From NCBI GenBank assembly GCA_021156265.1, contig JAJNBR010000029.1, positions 1-32,915 of the forward strand: 32,915 nucleotides of DNA, given 5' to 3'. Position numbers and translations under genes: made by a program. Position 1 is the first letter of the stretch; the number at the start of each line of letters is the position of its first letter. Of the stretch, positions 7,230 through 32,915 are shown one piece after another. The notes below the pieces were generated by a model, which was not told the origin of the DNA, ran no database searches, and worked only from the letters and a program-made list of their open reading frames with translations. This stretch comes from Flavipsychrobacter sp. Lineage in GTDB: Bacteria > Bacteroidota > Bacteroidia > Chitinophagales > Chitinophagaceae.

Positions 7230-9020
7230 ATGCGATTCCTGGCTTTTACCTTGATCCTATGTATTGCTGTTACCTGTTCCGCACAAAAATTTTCTCGCGT
7301 AAAAATATCGCTTGATAAGTCTAACTTAAATGAACTGATCTCGCTGGGAGTAGAAATAGACCATCTGCAACGCGGCCAGAACAACGACATTGTTACCGAG
7401 CTGTCCGAAGGCGAAGTAGATATTATCCGGAAACATGGATTCAAAACCGAAGTATTGATCGCTGATGTGGGCAAGTACTATAGTGAGCTGAACGGAACTA
7501 ACGAGCTCCTTAAAACCACACAAACCGGAGGAACACCAGAAAATTTTCAGCTGGGTAGCTATGCCGGTTATTTTACCTACGATGAGATGCTGCAAATATT
7601 CCAATCGATGCGAACGGCGTTTCCTCATCTTATCAGCGAGTTGACCCAGATCGATACCTTCCGGACTGCAGAGGGAAGGCCGATCCATTGGCTAAGGATA
7701 TCGAACAAGCCGGATGAGGAGCAGGCAGGTAAGAAGCAGATAATATACACGGCGTTGCACCATGCCCGGGAACCCGGCAGCCTTTCGCAAATGATCTATT
7801 TTCTCTGGCATTTATTGGAAAACTATGATAAGGACGAGAAAATACGCGCGTTGATAGACAATACGGAAATGTATTTCATCCCCTGCATCAATCCTGACGG
7901 ATATATATACAACATCAGCACCAATCCTAAAGGCGGTGGCATGTGGCGTACAAACCGAAGAAAGTACTACTCGGCAATCGGCGTAGATATTAACAGAAAT
8001 TACGGATACAAATGGGGGTTTGATAATATGGGGTCACAGTCCATTATGGGCGCAGAAACATCAAGGGGAACCAGCGCCTTTTCCGAACCGGAAACTCGCG
8101 CCGTAAAATGGTTTTTTGAAAATCATAACTTCCTCATCGCGCTTAACTACCATTCATACAGCCAGGTGCTTATTTACCCATGGGGATACCAAAATATGAA
8201 GTGCCCTGATTCTGCAACTTATGATGCCCTGGCGAATGTGATAACGGAGGCGAACAATTATAACCAGGGTAATTGCTACAATATGCTTGGTTACCTGGCC
8301 AATGGTAGCTCGGAAGATTGGATGTATGGGGAACAAACGACAAAAAATAAAGTTTTTGCATTTACGCCCGAAGTAGGATCGGGCTTTTATGAACCTGCAT
8401 CGGAAATAATACCTACATGCCAGGAAAACCTGGCGGCGAACATAAATGCAGCCGCACTCCTATTGCCTTTTGTAAAAATCGACCTTGATACGCAGATTTT
8501 GGGGTTAGTAGGCCATATTGCATTTGAATTGACGAATCCCGGTTTTTCAAAAACAGCCGATGTCCAGGTTGTGTTAGAACCGGTGGACGATAAGTTTGAA
8601 CACCTTGGCTCACGAACCTATACATCGATTGATCTGACCCAACCGTTGAGAGATTCAATTGAATTCAGGCTTCGACCGGGTGAAATAAAAGATGATGAAA
8701 GTATCAGGTGCCGCCTGAAATATACGAATGGGTATTACGGCGAATCATATACTGTGACTTTTAAATTTAAGGCTTCGGGATTATCAGTATTTCCTAACCC
8801 TGCAAGCACGGGTATTACTGTGCGGATAAACAGCTTTGTTGTATCGCAACCTATTGAAGCAGTATTGTTCAATAATGTGGGGATGGTGGTAAAAAAGTCA
8901 ATAATGAGGTCAAATTCGATGACCTTGGATGTCAGCGATCTCAGCGCCGGAATATATTACATGAAAATAGACTCCAAAACTAACCCCTTGCCTGTTCAGC
9001 GGGTATGTATTACGAGATAA
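7230..9020 (+). CDS. M14-family zinc carboxypeptidase with C-terminal type IX secretion (type A) sorting domain
   Basis: Signal peptide, propeptide-like region, M14 motifs HHAREPGS, NPDGY, GVDINRNYGYKWG, ALNYHSYSQVLIYPWGY, FTPEVGSGF; C-terminus LSVFPNPASTGITVRIN...DLSAGIYYMKI. Confidence 0.93.
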   Translation: MRFLAFTLILCIAVTCSAQKFSRVKISLDKSNLNELISLGVEIDHLQRGQNNDIVTELSEGEVDIIRKHGFKTEVLIADVGKYYSELNGTNELLKTTQTGGTPENFQLGSYAGYFTYDEMLQIFQSMRTAFPHLISELTQIDTFRTAEGRPIHWLRISNKPDEEQAGKKQIIYTALHHAREPGSLSQMIYFLWHLLENYDKDEKIRALIDNTEMYFIPCINPDGYIYNISTNPKGGGMWRTNRRKYYSAIGVDINRNYGYKWGFDNMGSQSIMGAETSRGTSAFSEPETRAVKWFFENHNFLIALNYHSYSQVLIYPWGYQNMKCPDSATYDALANVITEANNYNQGNCYNMLGYLANGSSEDWMYGEQTTKNKVFAFTPEVGSGFYEPASEIIPTCQENLAANINAAALLLPFVKIDLDTQILGLVGHIAFELTNPGFSKTADVQVVLEPVDDKFEHLGSRTYTSIDLTQPLRDSIEFRLRPGEIKDDESIRCRLKYTNGYYGESYTVTFKFKASGLSVFPNPASTGITVRINSFVVSQPIEAVLFNNVGMVVKKSIMRSNSMTLDVSDLSAGIYYMKIDSKTNPLPVQRVCITR

Positions 9021-11992: not shown

Positions 11993-13663
11993 ATGGAGCA
12001 ACAACCGGTCCAGGGGCGCAAGCACCCTAAAGGATTGCCTTATTTGTTTTTTACCGAGATGTGGGAGCGTTTCGGCTACTACCTGATGCTGGGCATTTTC
12101 GTGCTATATATGATCGATGTAAAGCGAGGAGGGCTCTCGATACCTGACAAGACAGCCGATGATATTTTTGGCACATTCATAGCCTTTACCTACCTGACAC
12201 CCTTCCTGGGCGGCTTTTTGGCTGACAGGAAGATAGGTTATATCAGATCGGTATACCTCGGCGGTATATTGATGGCAATGGGCTACCTCGGGCTGGCCTT
12301 GCCGGGTATGACGATGTTCTATACCTCAGTTGCACTTATTATTATAGGTAACGGTTTCTTCAAGCCCAACATTTCTACGTTATTAGGTAATCTCTATTCA
12401 GAGCCGGAATATCGTGAACGTAAAGACTCAGGCTACAACCTGTTCTATATGGGTATCAATATGGGTGCCTTCCTGGGCCCGATACTGGCAGCCTTGATGC
12501 GCAATAAATACAGCTGGTCGGCAGCATTTGCCACCGCAGGTATAGGCATGCTCGTTGGTCTTGTTGTATTTACTATTGGTTTGAAACATATCCGTCAGGC
12601 AGACGTGCTGAAGCCCGTGCAGAAAGAAGACGCCAGCATGGGTACAGTATTCGGAAAGGTTTTTCTGCCAGCGCTTATTTGCGGTGTTATCGGCTGGATC
12701 GCGCCGCAATATGTTTTAGGAGTGGAGAATATCTTCGGCAGCAATAGTACCGATGGTTTCATCTTCGCAGCTATACCGATAGTAATATTCTATGTATCGC
12801 TTTGGGCTAAAGCAAATGCTACCGATAAACGCCCGATAGCGGCGCTGCTAGTGATATTTGCGTTGAGTATAGTGTTCTGGGCCGTATTTAAACAAAACGG
12901 TACGGCGCTTACCCGCTGGGCCAAATATTATACCGACAGGGAAGTGGCTGCCGTGATAGAAGGACCGGCTCGCGCACTCTACCAGGTAGAGACTATGCCG
13001 ACGAAAATAGACTCGGTGGTGAAGTATGATGGGCAGTTCCAGGCCGTAAAGGAAGACGGAAAGACAGTGAAAATATACGACAGGGATGTATACTTCCGCA
13101 ATGTGCCGCCCGAGAAGCAGCCTAAAAATGACGAGCCCATATACCTGACAAGTACCGAGTTGTTTCAGTCGGTCAATCCATTCTGGGTAGTTGCGCTGAC
13201 GCCGATTATTGTCGCCTTCTTCGCTATGCTGCGGCGTAGAAATAAAGAACCGACAACGGCTACCAAGATAGCCTTTGGTTTGTTAATATCAGGCTTGTCG
13301 ACACTAGTAATGGTAGGGGCAGTGTATGCCGGTGACAATGGTGCGGAGAAAGTATCGCCGATGTGGCTGGTAGGCGTGTATGGTGTTATTACCATAGGTG
13401 AGCTGCTGCTAAGTCCTATGGGATTGTCCTTGGTTTCGAAACTCAGTCCGCCGAGGCTTACGGCGTTGATGATGGGTGGCTTTTTCCTGTCAACAGCTAT
13501 TGGTAATAAGATGTCGGGCGTACTGGCCAGTTTGTGGTACGGTTATGAGAATAAGGCCAACTTCTTCCTTGTTAACTGCCTGCTACTGGTAGTTGCTGCC
13601 GGACTTGCATTTGCTGTCCTCCGCTGGCTGAATGGAGTAATGAAAGAAAAGAATATCAACTAA
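11993..13663 (+). CDS. POT/PTR-family proton-dependent oligopeptide MFS transporter (copy 1)
   Basis: EMWERFGYYLMLG (ExxERFxYY motif), GNGFFKPNIS, FYMGINMGAFLGP; multiple TM segments; 556 aa. Confidence 0.93.
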   Translation: MEQQPVQGRKHPKGLPYLFFTEMWERFGYYLMLGIFVLYMIDVKRGGLSIPDKTADDIFGTFIAFTYLTPFLGGFLADRKIGYIRSVYLGGILMAMGYLGLALPGMTMFYTSVALIIIGNGFFKPNISTLLGNLYSEPEYRERKDSGYNLFYMGINMGAFLGPILAALMRNKYSWSAAFATAGIGMLVGLVVFTIGLKHIRQADVLKPVQKEDASMGTVFGKVFLPALICGVIGWIAPQYVLGVENIFGSNSTDGFIFAAIPIVIFYVSLWAKANATDKRPIAALLVIFALSIVFWAVFKQNGTALTRWAKYYTDREVAAVIEGPARALYQVETMPTKIDSVVKYDGQFQAVKEDGKTVKIYDRDVYFRNVPPEKQPKNDEPIYLTSTELFQSVNPFWVVALTPIIVAFFAMLRRRNKEPTTATKIAFGLLISGLSTLVMVGAVYAGDNGAEKVSPMWLVGVYGVITIGELLLSPMGLSLVSKLSPPRLTALMMGGFFLSTAIGNKMSGVLASLWYGYENKANFFLVNCLLLVVAAGLAFAVLRWLNGVMKEKNIN

Positions 13664-13717
13664 AATATTAACGGTGCATTTCTTTTTATTGCAGAAGTGC
13701 ATTAATCATTTATCCGC

Positions 13718-13745
13718 AGCTTACCTCTAAATATCGAGGTAAGCT
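13718..13745. terminator. Hairpin terminator after POT copy 1
   Basis: agcttacctc (13718-13727), 8-nt loop, gaggtaagct (13736-13745), followed by gtttgttta. Confidence 0.65.
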
Positions 13746-13853
13746 GTTTGTTTATTATCCATAAGAATAGTTATCCACCACGCAATTCACATAGGGTTTC
13801 ATCTCCTGATTATTTTACTATCTTTCGCGATTACTTAATACAAAAAACCTTTT

Positions 13854-15449
13854 ATGAGCGAACAAAAAGGGCATCCTAAAGGATTGTACGTCCTGTTTTT
13901 TACCGAGATGTGGGAGCGCTTCAGCTATTATGGTATGCGCGCCATCCTTATCCTTTTCATGACCAAAATGCTGCAGTTCGATTCCAAATTTGCCTCGGGC
14001 ATCTATGGAAACTTCACTGCGGTAGTTTACCTCACTCCATTGATAGGTGGCTTTATAGCCGATAGGTATTGGGGTAACAGGCGGTCGATCTTTATGGGCG
14101 GATTATTAATGGCCATAGGACAATTCGTCCTCTTCTTTTGTGCTGCATCGGTATCCACAAATATGGACCTTGCCAAAATATTATTTGTAGTAGGTCTTAC
14201 AGGGTTAGTGTTAGGTAACGGTCTTTTCAAGCCGAACATCTCTACCATGGTAAACCAGTTATATGCACCCGGCGACAAAAGGGTGGATGCCGCGTTCTCT
14301 ATATTCTATATGGGTATTAACCTTGGCGCTTTCTTCTCTCCGCTTATCTGCGGCGGTCTGGCTGAAAAGGTGGACTATAAATGGGGTTTCCTCGCTGCCG
14401 GCGTAGGTATGATACTTGGCCTGGTGGTATTCCAGTTGTTGAAGGATAAATATATCGTGACGGCTGATGGACAGCAGATAGGCGGTAAGCCAAGTAAAGC
14501 TGTTTCGAATGCTGCCGCTGCCGACGACGCCGGCGAGGTAGTGGTAGCCCATGACCGCGAAGATGATTTTGCTGCACAGCAGGATCCAAAGCTGTCAACT
14601 GCAAGGAAATCGGAATTCACTCCTGCGCGTATAGGTACATGGCTGGTTATCTATGCAGTGCTGTGGGCATTCTTCCTGCTGGTAGTTGATTTTAACTGGA
14701 TCAGTACGCTGGTGTTTGCTACTTCCCTTACAGCTTCCGGTTTCATTATTACTGACCCTAACCTTACTAAAGTAGAACGCGACAGGATCGTTGTTATATA
14801 CATCGCGGCCTTCTTTGTTATCTTCTTTTGGAGTGCGTTTGAGCAGGCGGGTGCATCGTTGACGTTATTTGCTGATCAGCAAACTGACCGTACCATATTT
14901 GGCTGGGAAATGCCTGCTGCGTGGTTCCAGTCGGTGAATCCACTGGCGATCATCCTGTTTGCGCCGCTGTTTGCCGGTATATGGACCAGCCTTGGTAAAA
15001 AAGATAAAGAACCTGCTTCTCCAACCAAGCAAGCCATCGGTCTTTCGCTGCTTGCCCTTGGCTATCTCGTTATAGCAATGGGTGTAAAAGGCGTAGATGC
15101 TTCTACAAAAGCTTCAATGTTCTGGCTGCTGGGTATGTATGTACTGCATACATGGGGCGAGCTTTGCCTGTCGCCTATCGGTCTTTCGATGGTGGCACGT
15201 CTTGCACCTATGCGTCTTGCTTCGCTGCTGATGGGTGTATGGTTTCTTGCAAATGCAATGGCCAACGACTTTGCAGGTATGCTGAGCAAGCTGTACCCTG
15301 AAGATGGTAAAGCCACGTCATTCTTTGGTTACGAGATCGCAACATTGAATGATTTCTTCATGATATTCGTTGTACTCTCAGGTGCTGCTGCTGTTATCCT
15401 CTTCCTGCTTTCGAAGAAGATGCTGAAGATGATGCATGGCCTCAGGTAA
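13854..15449 (+). CDS. POT/PTR-family proton-dependent oligopeptide MFS transporter (copy 2)
   Basis: EMWERFSYYGMRAILILFM, GNGLFKPNIS, FYMGINLGAFFSP; 531 aa. Confidence 0.93.
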   Translation: MSEQKGHPKGLYVLFFTEMWERFSYYGMRAILILFMTKMLQFDSKFASGIYGNFTAVVYLTPLIGGFIADRYWGNRRSIFMGGLLMAIGQFVLFFCAASVSTNMDLAKILFVVGLTGLVLGNGLFKPNISTMVNQLYAPGDKRVDAAFSIFYMGINLGAFFSPLICGGLAEKVDYKWGFLAAGVGMILGLVVFQLLKDKYIVTADGQQIGGKPSKAVSNAAAADDAGEVVVAHDREDDFAAQQDPKLSTARKSEFTPARIGTWLVIYAVLWAFFLLVVDFNWISTLVFATSLTASGFIITDPNLTKVERDRIVVIYIAAFFVIFFWSAFEQAGASLTLFADQQTDRTIFGWEMPAAWFQSVNPLAIILFAPLFAGIWTSLGKKDKEPASPTKQAIGLSLLALGYLVIAMGVKGVDASTKASMFWLLGMYVLHTWGELCLSPIGLSMVARLAPMRLASLLMGVWFLANAMANDFAGMLSKLYPEDGKATSFFGYEIATLNDFFMIFVVLSGAAAVILFLLSKKMLKMMHGLR

Positions 15450-15468
15450 ACATTATAGACTTTTAATT

Positions 15469-15498
15469 AAAAGCCCGTTCGCAAGAGCGGGCTTTTTT
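15469..15498 (+). terminator. Rho-independent terminator after POT copy 2
   Basis: aaaagcccgttc-gcaa-gagcgggctttttt: 12-bp stem with one G-U pair, GNRA-type tetraloop and T run. Confidence 0.85.
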
Positions 15499-15565
15499 GC
15501 GGGTGATAAAAAGGGTTAATCAGAAATAAAAACTAATTTGGCTCAAATTTATTAAAAGACAATAG

Positions 15566-17158
15566 ATGGCTTCAGAGACAATCACTGTAGAACAGATACA
15601 AAATTTCAAAGGGAAGTATCCCAAACAACTTTATGTGCTGTTCATGACCGAGATGTGGGAACGCTTTACCTTTTATGGTATGCGCGCCCTGCTTATCCTG
15701 TTCATGATATCGGGCGCATCGTTCGAAGCTTTTCCTGACGAAAAAGCAAATCTTACTTATGGTGCTTACCAGGCGTTGGTATATGCCATGCCTGTTTTTG
15801 GTGGTATACTGGCCGACAGGCTGATGGGTTTTCGCAGGGCGATATTCTGGGGTGGTATATTGATGGCGATAGGGAACTTTACGCTGGCTATACCTAATAA
15901 TATATGGGCGTTCTATCTCGGTATGGGTTTTATCGTAGTAGGTAATGGTTTCTTCAAACCTAATATCTCCTCTATCGTTGGTAACCTGTATGCTCCTAAC
16001 GACCCTCGCCGTGATGCGGGTTTCTCGATGTTCTATATGGGTATCAATATCGGCGCCTTCCTGGGTAGCTTGTTGTGTGGCTGGATAGGACAAACCTATA
16101 GCTGGCATGCTGGTTTCGGGCTGGCTGGCGTATTCATGATCGTTGGTTTAATCGTGTTTAAGACCGGTCAGAAAGCACTTGGACCGATAGGCTTGCCTCC
16201 GGTACCGGGTAAAGAAGAGCAGATCGCAATGGGGGATATGCTGGACCGTCCGCAGGATGACCAAACCGAGATGATAACAACTGACAAGGTGATACCTAAT
16301 TATAAGGCAAAAGAGCGCCTTGTGTTCATCGGTAGTCTTGTTGCCATCCCGCTTTTTGCTGCGCTGTTGTATTACTATAAGGTAATGGGCTCTGTTTTCG
16401 TGCCGTTCGGTTTGATAGCACTGGGTTATATTCTTTACCTGTCTGGCAAAGAAAACCTGGAAGCGCGATTGAAAATATTTGCAGCATTAGTAATGATCGT
16501 CTTCTCTATCCTGTTCTGGGGTTTTTATGAGCAGGGTGGTGGTTCGCTCAACCTGTTTGCAGCGCGTAACGTGAACATGAATTTCTTTGGGCTCGAACTT
16601 TCTTCTGCCGCGGTGAACAACTCAGTGAATCCGGTATGGGTGATCTTGCTAAGCCCGGTATTTGGTTATCTCTGGGTAGCGATGGCGAATAAGAGACTGG
16701 AACCCAATTCTCCGCTGAAGTTTGCAATAGGCCTGATACTACTGGGACTGAGTTTCTATGTATTTGTATTGGCAGGACATGCTGCCGGTACCGATGGTAA
16801 AATATCGCTCGGTATGTTCGTGGTAGGATACTTTATTATGTCGTGCGGCGAGCTTTGCCTGTCTCCAATAGGCTTGTCCATGATCACGAAACTCTCGCCT
16901 GCAAAGATGGTGGGCCTGATGATGGGTATGTGGTTCCTGGCGAGCGCGTTCGGTCAGTATGTGGCTGGTCTTGTTGGTACGCTCATGGCTATCCCATCAG
17001 AAGGTGGTGAGGGAACTGGTCTTGCGGTTAATCCTATTGAAACGTTACCCGTGTACATGGGTGTGTTTGAGAAAATAGCCTGGATATCCATTGGTTGCGG
17101 TGTGTTACTGCTGATATTATCTCCGCTATTGAAACGCTGGATGAAGGATGTTCACTAA
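15566..17158 (+). CDS. POT/PTR-family proton-dependent oligopeptide MFS transporter (copy 3)
   Basis: EMWERFTFYGMRALLILFM, GNGFFKPNIS, FYMGINIGAFLGS; 530 aa. Confidence 0.93.
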   Translation: MASETITVEQIQNFKGKYPKQLYVLFMTEMWERFTFYGMRALLILFMISGASFEAFPDEKANLTYGAYQALVYAMPVFGGILADRLMGFRRAIFWGGILMAIGNFTLAIPNNIWAFYLGMGFIVVGNGFFKPNISSIVGNLYAPNDPRRDAGFSMFYMGINIGAFLGSLLCGWIGQTYSWHAGFGLAGVFMIVGLIVFKTGQKALGPIGLPPVPGKEEQIAMGDMLDRPQDDQTEMITTDKVIPNYKAKERLVFIGSLVAIPLFAALLYYYKVMGSVFVPFGLIALGYILYLSGKENLEARLKIFAALVMIVFSILFWGFYEQGGGSLNLFAARNVNMNFFGLELSSAAVNNSVNPVWVILLSPVFGYLWVAMANKRLEPNSPLKFAIGLILLGLSFYVFVLAGHAAGTDGKISLGMFVVGYFIMSCGELCLSPIGLSMITKLSPAKMVGLMMGMWFLASAFGQYVAGLVGTLMAIPSEGGEGTGLAVNPIETLPVYMGVFEKIAWISIGCGVLLLILSPLLKRWMKDVH

Positions 17159-28868: not shown

Positions 28869-30644
28869 TTAATCTTTTGCAAACTGTATGCCGAAATTCA
28901 CCTCATTTGTCATGCGAATCAAATAATTTCCGGCAGGCAGAGTGCTGATATTGACCTGGCCCTCGGTGGTTCCGTCCAGCAGTTTCTGACCGGCCAGGTT
29001 GTAAATGGCGAATGCGGTCGGCTTATCCAGTCCTTTTATGGTCATCGAGTTGCCCGCGGGGTTGGGATAAACGATCATCCCGCTACCGTTTTTTACATCG
29101 TTTATATTTTGAGGATATTTTCGCTGTTTGTATCCTATACCATTGAGCGGTGCGCCCTGGTATTCCATATCTTTTTTAAACTTGCCGCCTGCGTAGAGCC
29201 GGCCCTTGAATACCGTCATCTTGTTGATCGCATCATCTACCAGGAACCAGTCGCCGGTGCCAAACAGGCCAATACAGTTGCTCACCCCCGTCATCATCAT
29301 AGGATGTGTAAATTTACCGCCCATCAGGAACGTGTCAACGTCAACGCACAGCGTATTATATGATGTGGTAGAAGTGATGTTCATTCCCAACGGTTCGTCA
29401 ACCCAGCTGCTACCGGAAAGTTTTTTCAACAGTGTGCTGTCAGTTCCACCGCTGAATTTGGTAGCGGCATACATGGTGCCTTTATAAACCTGGAAGTCCA
29501 TGACCTCGTTTTGAATAATATTGCCAAAGGCCTGGAAGTTGTTAACCGGATCCCACAGGATGGCATTGGCACTCAGGAGGTAGTATTGAAACGAACCGCC
29601 GAGGAGTAATTTATCGTTCCATATTTCTACAGTATTCACATGACCCTCCAGAAACGGTATCTGCTGCCACATAGTACCTGTCCAACGCGCAAAGTTTACT
29701 TCGCTCATAGCAGCACAGACATCAAAATCGCCAACAGCATACAATTGACCACCATATACGATCAGGTCCTTAACAGTTCCGTATGTACAACCGGCAGGCT
29801 GCCAGGCGCTGCCATCCCAATAAGCTACGTTGGCGAGGGCTGTACTACCTGCCATGGTCATGCTGAAATGACCGGCAATGAAGATCTTCCCGTCAAATTT
29901 CTCGATGGCATATACTTCGCCATTCACGCCTTTGTTCATGTCGTGCCAGGTATAGACACCGGCGAGTTCTGTAACGTAGGCAATATTGTTGGCCTGAATA
30001 GAGCCGTCAGCCGTCATGAAGCTGCCGCCCACATATAGTTTGTCATCAGCATCGTCTGCAAATAACTCGAGTACTTCACCATCCACGCCATCACCTACGG
30101 GTAGGGCATTCATTTCGGGGGGATAACCGGGTTGGATCCAGGCCAGTTCATCTATTGTAAAGCCATATTCGTTGGCCCAGGTCATAAGTTCTGGATAGTT
30201 CATCTGGCGAACATATGCCAGGTTGGTCTTTGCCGCGATCTTGCGTGATACAGATTCATTGCCACTGGCTTTAACCAGGTATCCCACTGCGCAGAAATTA
30301 TCATACTTATCAATAAATATGGGTGTGCGGTACGCGTATTGATCGTTGATCGGGAATTGACCCGATTGCCAGTATTGGTGAAGGTCGTTCAGGCTTTGGT
30401 TTCTTTTCTCTTTCTGATCGGCAGACAATTTGCTTATGTCACGTGCACGCAGCGTTTGTTCTACTAGTGATAAATGTGTTTGTATCCACTGCCTTTCTGA
30501 CATCGTACGGTAAGGAGGTAACCGGGGAATGTCTTTTTGTTCGGTCCAGCATTGGTTGACTTCAGCCAGTTTGCTGAAGGTTTTGTTATCAGCAAATGAC
30601 CATAAGCAGTAGCAGGAGAGGACGAGGGTAAGTAGTGCTTTCAT
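28869..30644 (-). CDS. T9SS-secreted protein: N-terminal conserved Cys-containing domain, seven propeller-like repeats, C-terminal sorting domain
   Basis: ATG at 30644 gives MKALLTLVLSCYCLWSFA (signal peptide). Repeats include KLYVGGSF, KIFIAGHF, QLYAVGDF, KLLLGGSF, TMYAATKF, TFLMGGKF, RLYAGGKF. C-terminus MIVYPNPAGNSMTIKGLD...TLPAGNYLIRMT. Confidence 0.85.
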   Translation of the reverse strand: MKALLTLVLSCYCLWSFADNKTFSKLAEVNQCWTEQKDIPRLPPYRTMSERQWIQTHLSLVEQTLRARDISKLSADQKEKRNQSLNDLHQYWQSGQFPINDQYAYRTPIFIDKYDNFCAVGYLVKASGNESVSRKIAAKTNLAYVRQMNYPELMTWANEYGFTIDELAWIQPGYPPEMNALPVGDGVDGEVLELFADDADDKLYVGGSFMTADGSIQANNIAYVTELAGVYTWHDMNKGVNGEVYAIEKFDGKIFIAGHFSMTMAGSTALANVAYWDGSAWQPAGCTYGTVKDLIVYGGQLYAVGDFDVCAAMSEVNFARWTGTMWQQIPFLEGHVNTVEIWNDKLLLGGSFQYYLLSANAILWDPVNNFQAFGNIIQNEVMDFQVYKGTMYAATKFSGGTDSTLLKKLSGSSWVDEPLGMNITSTTSYNTLCVDVDTFLMGGKFTHPMMMTGVSNCIGLFGTGDWFLVDDAINKMTVFKGRLYAGGKFKKDMEYQGAPLNGIGYKQRKYPQNINDVKNGSGMIVYPNPAGNSMTIKGLDKPTAFAIYNLAGQKLLDGTTEGQVNISTLPAGNYLIRMTNEVNFGIQFAKD

Positions 30645-30740
30645 AAAAAATATTTTAAAGATTAAGGTTACTGCTCTCCGGAAAAGCGTATACACAGATA
30701 GACGAAAGGGACGGTGGGGTTGTTAGTACTTGGTGAAAAT

Positions 30741-32321
30741 TTATTTCAGAAGATCGAAGCCTAAAGTTACGCGGATATAAGGTTGCCTTAATATTTCACG
30801 CACCTTGTCATTGAATATGTACTCCATCTTTGAAAGCGTCTGACGGTACAAGATATCGAAATGGAAACGCTGCCTGAATGTATAGCTTAATCCAAATGTC
30901 ACGCCCATTTTGAACGGGTTGATCGTTGGATTATCGAAAGCAGATGTGTTGTGAGCGGAAATGTCTGGTCCTGCTTGCGGAAATACTTCATTGATATTCA
31001 AGGTGTCAAATTCAGCGCTATTGTGTTTGCGATTCATTTTTAGTGTGTCAACCAACACAAGGCCCGAATGAGTCTGTTTTGTAGTTGCCACTTTAGGTAC
31101 ACGGGTGAAATGAAACGCCGGACCGGCATATACCGAGAAATTCTTGTACACTTTGTAACTCAGCATCAATGGCAGGTCAAGATTCCAGTAGCGCACATTT
31201 TTTAGCTCATTTGTGATAAAAATGGAATCGTAGGTTTTCCGGTAAGCCATGTGCTCATCATTGCTGGCAGGTATTCCGCTGCCGCCATTGGGCGTCCCTA
31301 CGAAGACCACTTCCTTAAGGCTGTCGGTTGTTCTGCTATAACTACCCTTCGATAAAAGTGCTGCTTCCGAATGTGAATACTTAAATGCCGGTTGCAGAAG
31401 CAGACCGAAACGTTTGCCTAAATTGTATTTCAGGTATGGAGATAGGACAAAGCTGTTAGCATGGTAAGGTTTAGTTCCGAATTCGTAGCCGGTTTTTAAA
31501 CCTGCCGAGAACCTGCGGATACGGTCTTTTTCGGCTATTTGTGTATCAGCAGGAATGTTTGTCAAAGCTGTTTTTTCGGTCTCTGCCGGTTGCATTTGTG
31601 TTATTTCAGCCGGACTATTGTCAACAGGCCTCAGAGTTTGTGAAGGCTGGTTGTCAGGCGTACTTTCGGCAAGTAAACCTGTACTGGTTTCCATTTTTGC
31701 TCCCGACGAGGGGACCAGGGCCTGGAATACTTCCTCATCAAATTGCTTTTCATATTGATCGCCTTTGCCTGCGGTTGGCAGGAGGTGTAAAATGTCTTGT
31801 GCCGGTTCCGGCTTTTTTAATTCTGTTGGCGAGGGGCCGGGGGCAGAAACCAGCTCTGCTTTGAGTGCGTTTGTTTCAGGGGTAGTGGGATACACTGCAG
31901 GTTCAGGAACCGCTGATGCTACTGAATGATTGGTAACGACGGGTATGGCCGCGGGCAGTTTGCTTCTGCTCGGCCTGTTGCTGGCCGATCGCCGGACGGA
32001 GGGTTTGGGCTCTTGTATAGGTTTGGATACAGTAGTTTGTATGGTTGCAGGTCTTGGCGTTGCGGATAGATCTATGTGAATTGGTTTTGGAGGGTTCGGC
32101 GAATCGATGGTTTCAATACCAGCGAGGTGTTTGTAATAAGCTGTTCCGCCGATCGACGCCATAAACAACAGGATAAACCATATCCAGGGTATAAGCCTTT
32201 TGCGCGGCTTTTCATCAAGGCGCTGCTCCAGGGCTGCCCAAACATCAACCGCCGGCTGTTCGGTATAGCCGCCCAGCTGCTGCCTGAAGTATTGGTCGAT
32301 ATGTTGGTTGTGGTCTTCCAT
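30741..32321 (-). CDS. Candidate dual membrane-spanning anti-sigma factor: cytoplasmic N-terminus, one TM, long disordered linker, outer-membrane beta-barrel
   Basis: MEDHNQHIDQYFRQQLGGYTEQPAVDVWAALEQRL then KRLIPWIWFILLFMASIGGTAYY (TM), Pro/Ser/Thr/Ala-rich linker, then barrel FSAGLKTGYEFGTKPYHANSFVLSPYLKYNLGKRFGLLLQPAFKYSHSE...PYIRVTLGFDLLK. Starts 2 nt after the sigma-factor stop. Confidence 0.7.
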   Translation of the reverse strand: MEDHNQHIDQYFRQQLGGYTEQPAVDVWAALEQRLDEKPRKRLIPWIWFILLFMASIGGTAYYKHLAGIETIDSPNPPKPIHIDLSATPRPATIQTTVSKPIQEPKPSVRRSASNRPSRSKLPAAIPVVTNHSVASAVPEPAVYPTTPETNALKAELVSAPGPSPTELKKPEPAQDILHLLPTAGKGDQYEKQFDEEVFQALVPSSGAKMETSTGLLAESTPDNQPSQTLRPVDNSPAEITQMQPAETEKTALTNIPADTQIAEKDRIRRFSAGLKTGYEFGTKPYHANSFVLSPYLKYNLGKRFGLLLQPAFKYSHSEAALLSKGSYSRTTDSLKEVVFVGTPNGGSGIPASNDEHMAYRKTYDSIFITNELKNVRYWNLDLPLMLSYKVYKNFSVYAGPAFHFTRVPKVATTKQTHSGLVLVDTLKMNRKHNSAEFDTLNINEVFPQAGPDISAHNTSAFDNPTINPFKMGVTFGLSYTFRQRFHFDILYRQTLSKMEYIFNDKVREILRQPYIRVTLGFDLLK

Positions 32322-32323
32322 CG

Positions 32324-32905
32324 CTACTTCATAAAAGGTTTTATTTTTTCTTTTAGCCGTTTGCGCGCATCATTCAGGTGCCACCTGCTGTTGTTTTCTG
32401 ATATGGAGAGCAACGCAGCAATGTCTTTATGCGGGTAATCCTCGAAAACAAAGAGGTTGAATACCATCCGGTGCATCTCGGGCAGATCGTGTATGAGCAG
32501 CAGCAGGTCTTTGTAATGGATGCCACTTGTTATCGACTGCTCCATCCTTACATCCAGATGCTCCGGCATCTCCTGCATGGTTTGGCGGTGCCGGGCGTGT
32601 TTCCGCACATGGTCAGTAATAGTATAGATGGTCGTTGTCCTCATCCAGCCTTCAAAAGCTCCTTTGAATTCGTAATGGCCCAGTTTGGTCAGGATCTTAA
32701 AGAAGCTATCGTTGAGTATCTCTTTTGCTTCTGCCTCGTCTTTAATATACCGCCTGATGACACCGTATATAAAAGGAGCGTAACGGTCATATATCTCTTT
32801 TTGAGCGGTTCTTGTCCCGGCAATAGCTTCCCTGATCAGTCCGTGCAGGTCTGACTGGCCGGTTTTGGCCGGCAACGATACAGGTATAGTGTTTTTTAAG
32901 TCCAA
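32324..32905 (-). CDS. ECF-type RNA polymerase sigma-70 factor
   Basis: Sigma2-like AQKEIYDRYAPFIYGVIRRYIKDEAEAKEILNDSFFKILTKLGHYEFKGAFEGWMRTTTIYTITDHVRK and sigma4-like LPEMHRMVFNLFVFEDYPHKDIAALLSISENNSRWHLNDARKRLKE. Confidence 0.92.
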   Translation of the reverse strand: MDLKNTIPVSLPAKTGQSDLHGLIREAIAGTRTAQKEIYDRYAPFIYGVIRRYIKDEAEAKEILNDSFFKILTKLGHYEFKGAFEGWMRTTTIYTITDHVRKHARHRQTMQEMPEHLDVRMEQSITSGIHYKDLLLLIHDLPEMHRMVFNLFVFEDYPHKDIAALLSISENNSRWHLNDARKRLKEKIKPFMK

Positions 32906-32915
32906 GCCATGTCGT

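Follow-up and report, generated by a model that had tools for sequence, protein, structure and literature searches.

How might the state of the outer membrane reach a cytoplasmic sigma factor when a single protein stands behind that sigma factor? In FecI-FecR-TonB receptor systems, an outer-membrane signal is passed to a cytoplasmic ECF sigma factor by three separate proteins. The locus described here seems to serve the same route, but with neither a FecR domain nor a TonB-dependent receptor in either protein of the pair (Pfam). It lies at the end of the window, that is, the whole stretch of 32,915 nucleotides that was analysed, which makes up an entire contig (C128). The genome to which this contig belongs is 85% complete and comprises 3.03 Mb on 331 contigs. 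Elsewhere, at 11993-17158, the window carries three tandem genes for transporters of the POT family (PTR2).

The sigma factor gene and the protein behind it

The sigma factor gene, the gene behind it (here called dma) and the parts of its product are as follows.

32324..32914, (-) strand: ECF sigma factor gene (Sigma70_r2 and r4_2), cut off at its 5' end by the contig edge (32915)
30741..32321, (-) strand: 526-aa protein, Dma-type anti-sigma and outer-membrane barrel protein by its anatomy (ORF, Pfam, tblastn, AlphaFold)
32190..32321, (-) strand: residues 1-44, two helices with a conserved motif, predicted to lie in the cytoplasm and to bind the sigma factor
32121..32186, (-) strand: residues 46-67, single inner-membrane helix (hydropathy, AlphaFold), with KPRKR just before it
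31527..32120, (-) strand: residues 68-265, disordered periplasmic tether rich in Pro, Ala, Thr and Ser (AlphaFold pLDDT <50; 15% P)
30744..31526, (-) strand: residues 266-526, C-terminal outer-membrane beta-barrel (PF13568, AlphaFold, Foldseek)

The sigma factor is recognized by both of its Pfam domains (Sigma70_r2, E 2e-11; r4_2, E 8e-10). Its reading frame runs past the contig end, and the start codon is either the TTG at 32905 or farther out. The ATG of dma follows 2 nt past the sigma stop, at the coordinates claimed in an earlier, sequence-only reading of this DNA. That reading had also divided the protein into a charged N terminus, a transmembrane helix, a linker and a barrel-like region; AlphaFold and hydropathy place the boundaries within a few residues of those proposed, and its claim of only one transmembrane segment holds, with hydropathy giving a single segment near residue 43.

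In the AlphaFold model of the whole protein, for which an alignment of 27 sequences was used, two helices (8-16 and 25-36) are followed by the transmembrane helix and by barrel strands between residues 271 and 525. The positive residues of KPRKR fit an orientation with the N terminus inside the cell. The suspected barrel is borne out by a match to OMP_b-brl_2 (PF13568) over residues 289-498 (E 6e-7; bit score 30, cut-off 27) and by folding of the barrel alone (mean pLDDT 85, pTM 0.70). In Foldseek, the barrel is matched best by outer-membrane barrels of the PDB, FapF, OmpA, Ail and OmpX among them; these superpose poorly, and given the large rmsd of the alignments they support an outer-membrane barrel but no closer family. 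A sequence search of the PDB gave no match. Judging by the order of DSSP elements in the model, the barrel probably has eight strands, with both termini on the periplasmic side.

Relatives and the pairing with a sigma factor

Of 200 genomes assigned to the same family by GTDB, 35 contain relatives of the 526-aa protein detected by tblastn, with 20-52% identity across the matched stretches. Nearly all of those fetched have an ECF sigma gene immediately before them, and in most the two reading frames overlap or are no more than about 20 nt apart; the observation is therefore not a matter of chance. Among the hosts are Chitinophagaceae bacterium LGM1, Taibaiella soli and Flavipsychrobacter stenotrophus, with weaker relatives in Flavobacteriaceae and in a Bacteroidales MAG. 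The sigma factor of the window is about 39-50% identical to the sigma factors adjoining the closer relatives. A scan of genome contigs with the single 526-aa sequence found no relative; an alignment-based profile did find relatives, and in a phylum-wide search it matched 81 of 396 genomes, although some of these matches may reflect linker composition only.

The N-terminal segment carries a conserved motif, IDxxF..LG.Y.E.PP..VW..LE.RL, which is shared by the relatives, including those from a Bacteroidales MAG (L113) and a Bacteroidetes MAG (L112). In two relatives (L033:6604-8670 and L034:6372-8387), this predicted sigma-binding motif occurs twice in tandem before the transmembrane helix. At another locus (L139:1501-2289), a sigma-like ORF adjoins the gene for a 263-aa protein whose N-terminal motif is similar and which has a transmembrane helix, but in which no barrel was matched. 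The tether varies between about 90 and 690 aa among the relatives compared. Divergence of the N-terminal 40 residues follows that of the sigma factor more closely (Spearman 0.83) than does divergence of the barrel (0.67), which is weak evidence of contact between N terminus and sigma factor, since shared descent gives such correlations too.

A promoter-like motif and the genes behind it

The most informative part of the analysis, which had no counterpart in the earlier reading, is a promoter-like motif and its link to type IX secretion (T9SS). The pattern TAAC-N17-CGTC occurs in 38 of 42 regions upstream of the sigma genes of closer relatives; in five shuffles, the best pattern reached at most nine regions. 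The consensus, CTAACRTTT-N13-CGTC, is ECF-like, and many loci hold a second, divergent copy. The strict form of the motif was counted 47 times in 22 genomes that carry the pair (80.7 Mb), against 15 for the reversed pattern, and not once in 22 genomes of the family in which tblastn detected no relative (109.7 Mb), a contrast that may in part be phylogenetic because the two sets of genomes differ in ancestry. Lengthening the spacer by one nucleotide (N14) leaves a single site. The motif was not seen in the sigma upstream regions examined from Flavobacteriaceae, Bacteroidales and more divergent relatives, and a small sample of seven upstream regions, mostly from loci of the phylum-wide search, showed no common motif.

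Which genes stand behind these sites? Sites were retained when their coordinates were judged to lead away from the pair itself, and the gene behind each was taken; two genes of the window's own genome were added and one 80-residue ORF was left out. Among the resulting 43 proteins, 33 match a T9SS type A sorting tail, a proportion for which a binomial p-value assumes too much independence, because orthologous sites recur in close genomes. A further six are sigma factors; one site of the set (L235) proved to precede a sigma gene of the same type as that of the pair. The T9SS-tailed genes are mostly far from the dma locus. The background amounts to 117-138 such tails per genome of 3.0-3.6 Mb in the fully counted genomes, or about 4-6% of genes if roughly one gene per kb is assumed.

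In the window, a copy of the motif stands between dma and the next gene:

30701..30726, (-) strand: promoter-like motif CTAACAACC-N13-CGTC, at +15 relative to the dma stop; the start codon of the following gene is 56 nt away
28869..30644, (-) strand: predicted target, a 591-aa secreted beta-propeller protein with a T9SS type A sorting tail at 28902-29072

The 591-aa protein matches TIGR04183 (E 8e-9), PF18962 (E 1e-8) and DUF5122. The placement of this copy is near that found in several relatives; a motif between dma and the next gene is present in 8 of 41 relatives, the window counted, and most are without it. Across the window's own genome, the core motif has six matches, against ten for the reversed control, and so shows no genome-wide enrichment. 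Two of the six lie directly before T9SS-tailed genes, one in the window at 56 nt and one on another contig (C43) at 32 nt (p ~7e-5 by a simple count that treats related sites as independent). Both copies have the CTAAC/CGTC core without the TTT of the consensus, and for this reason their activity is a prediction only. A near-consensus copy, CTAACATTC...CGTC, lies elsewhere in the same genome at C164:30-55 (L151:30-55) and points off the contig start. Presuming that this contig adjoins that of the window, it could be the missing promoter of the window's sigma gene.

Two further observations concern the same genome. A gene for an M14 carboxypeptidase with a T9SS tail lies in the window at 7230-9020, and a window search allowing up to two mismatches found no motif site near it. 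A second sigma/Dma-like pair, cut by the contig end, is present on contig C212 (L067:1-1082); neither TAAC...CGT nor CTAAC...CGTC was found upstream of its sigma gene.

Proposed mechanism, alternatives and known systems

From the architecture, the gene pairing, the promoter motif and the T9SS-tailed targets, all predicted by computation, we infer how the sigma factor may be bound, signalled to and released, and what it may read. The best explanation, to which we give a probability of about 0.75, is a pair of ECF sigma factor and Dma-type anti-sigma factor that couples the state of the outer membrane to the production of T9SS cargo. At rest, the protein would be inserted by its barrel in the outer membrane and by its single transmembrane helix in the inner one; the disordered tether would bridge the periplasm, and the pair of N-terminal helices in the cytoplasm would keep the sigma factor inactive. 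The trigger at the outer membrane could be a ligand on long surface loops, failed barrel assembly, or tension on or cleavage of the tether, and such a change would release the sigma factor. In the relatives, the latter would then read CTAACRTTT-N13-CGTC and switch on the operon to which it belongs, together with a limited group of T9SS-exported proteins; in the window, the gene directly downstream, encoding the 591-aa protein, would belong to this target set if the motif copy before it is active. It could even be imagined, though we think it improbable, that the signal sensed by the barrel is the state of the type IX system or a surface protein exported through it. If true, the pair would form a feedback loop in which cargo synthesis is matched to outer-membrane export.

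Other readings of the pair have to be weighed against this coupling to T9SS cargo. The most serious, though still an unlikely one, concerns the signal: the barrel could be an anchor only, with signalling by proteolysis of the tether or the transmembrane segment in the manner of RseA. The single transmembrane helix and the long exposed linker would suit such a route, and among the parts compared the barrel is the fastest to diverge (mean identity 0.23); it is nevertheless kept across the aligned Chitinophagaceae, and some of its positions are invariant, among them the DS of a YDSI-like motif (one alignment). We also regard it as rather doubtful that the pair serves general envelope stress or vesicle control, as in Bacteroides, with the T9SS-tailed genes as incidental neighbours. 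The published Dma and Reo systems do control outer-membrane vesicles, NigD lipoproteins and polysaccharide utilization loci (PULs), and the Reo system responds to Bd-A and to the toxin BcpT, but the prevalence of sorting tails among the motif-linked genes, most of them remote from dma, speaks against mere neighbourhood.

It seems very unlikely that another sigma factor reads the motif and that the pair is merely one of its targets. A candidate was suggested by five genomes (L216, L219, L225, L228, L242), in which a second ECF sigma gene, a conserved one, has the motif 187-256 nt ahead of it. This second sigma factor is, however, found in every one of the 22 genomes that lack the motif, while the motif itself goes with the Dma pair, and this sigma factor was therefore set aside as an improbable reader. 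Least credible of all is the idea that the 526-aa protein is no anti-sigma factor but an outer-membrane protein anchored through a long N-terminal part and placed by chance behind a sigma gene. No Pfam anti-sigma domain was matched in it; yet the pairing is kept in most fetched relatives, the conserved N terminus co-diverges with the sigma factor, and published proteins of the same architecture are anti-sigma factors.

These published proteins are the closest known systems. Dma2 of Bacteroides thetaiotaomicron has the same four-part organisation, in a family found solely among Bacteroidota (PMC13088901), and the anti-sigma factor Reo of the EcfO-Reo pair in P. vulgatus crosses the periplasm to a C-terminal barrel (PMC9308784) and 'spans all five' compartments (PMC13114119); the pair is induced by antibacterial toxins (PMC9308784, PMC13114119). 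What Dma1/Dma2 (Das1/Das2) of B. thetaiotaomicron and EcfO-Reo of Bacteroides/Phocaeicola share with the locus is an ECF sigma factor followed by one protein with an N-terminal sigma-binding part (predicted here), one transmembrane helix, a long disordered tether and a C-terminal barrel. On anatomy, then, the suggestion of a Dma-type system outside Bacteroides stands, but its novelty is smaller than supposed, since the family is Bacteroidota-wide and the three reports (PMC13088901, PMC9308784, PMC13114119) make the design a known one. The Dma and Reo systems differ in their targets, which are NigD lipoproteins, vesiculation and PULs, while here the predicted targets are T9SS cargo and the host probably belongs to the Chitinophagaceae. 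What is new is thus the promoter motif together with the predicted link to T9SS cargo.

Control of type IX secretion by ECF sigma factors has been described for PorXY-SigP of Porphyromonas gingivalis and for the SM6 ECF promoters of Flavobacterium psychrophilum. In the parts of those reports available to us, both are described as acting on genes for T9SS components, PorXY is a two-component route for which no barrel anti-sigma factor is described, and the SigP motif (PMC4800418) differs from CTAACRTTT-N13-CGTC. If the reading preferred here is right, a class of regulators that reaches from the outer membrane to the cytoplasm gains a concrete promoter and target set outside the gut Bacteroidales. 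This class would also be linked to type IX secretion, where ECF control, as far as the consulted parts of the literature go, has mainly concerned component genes rather than a cargo set under an envelope-spanning anti-sigma factor.
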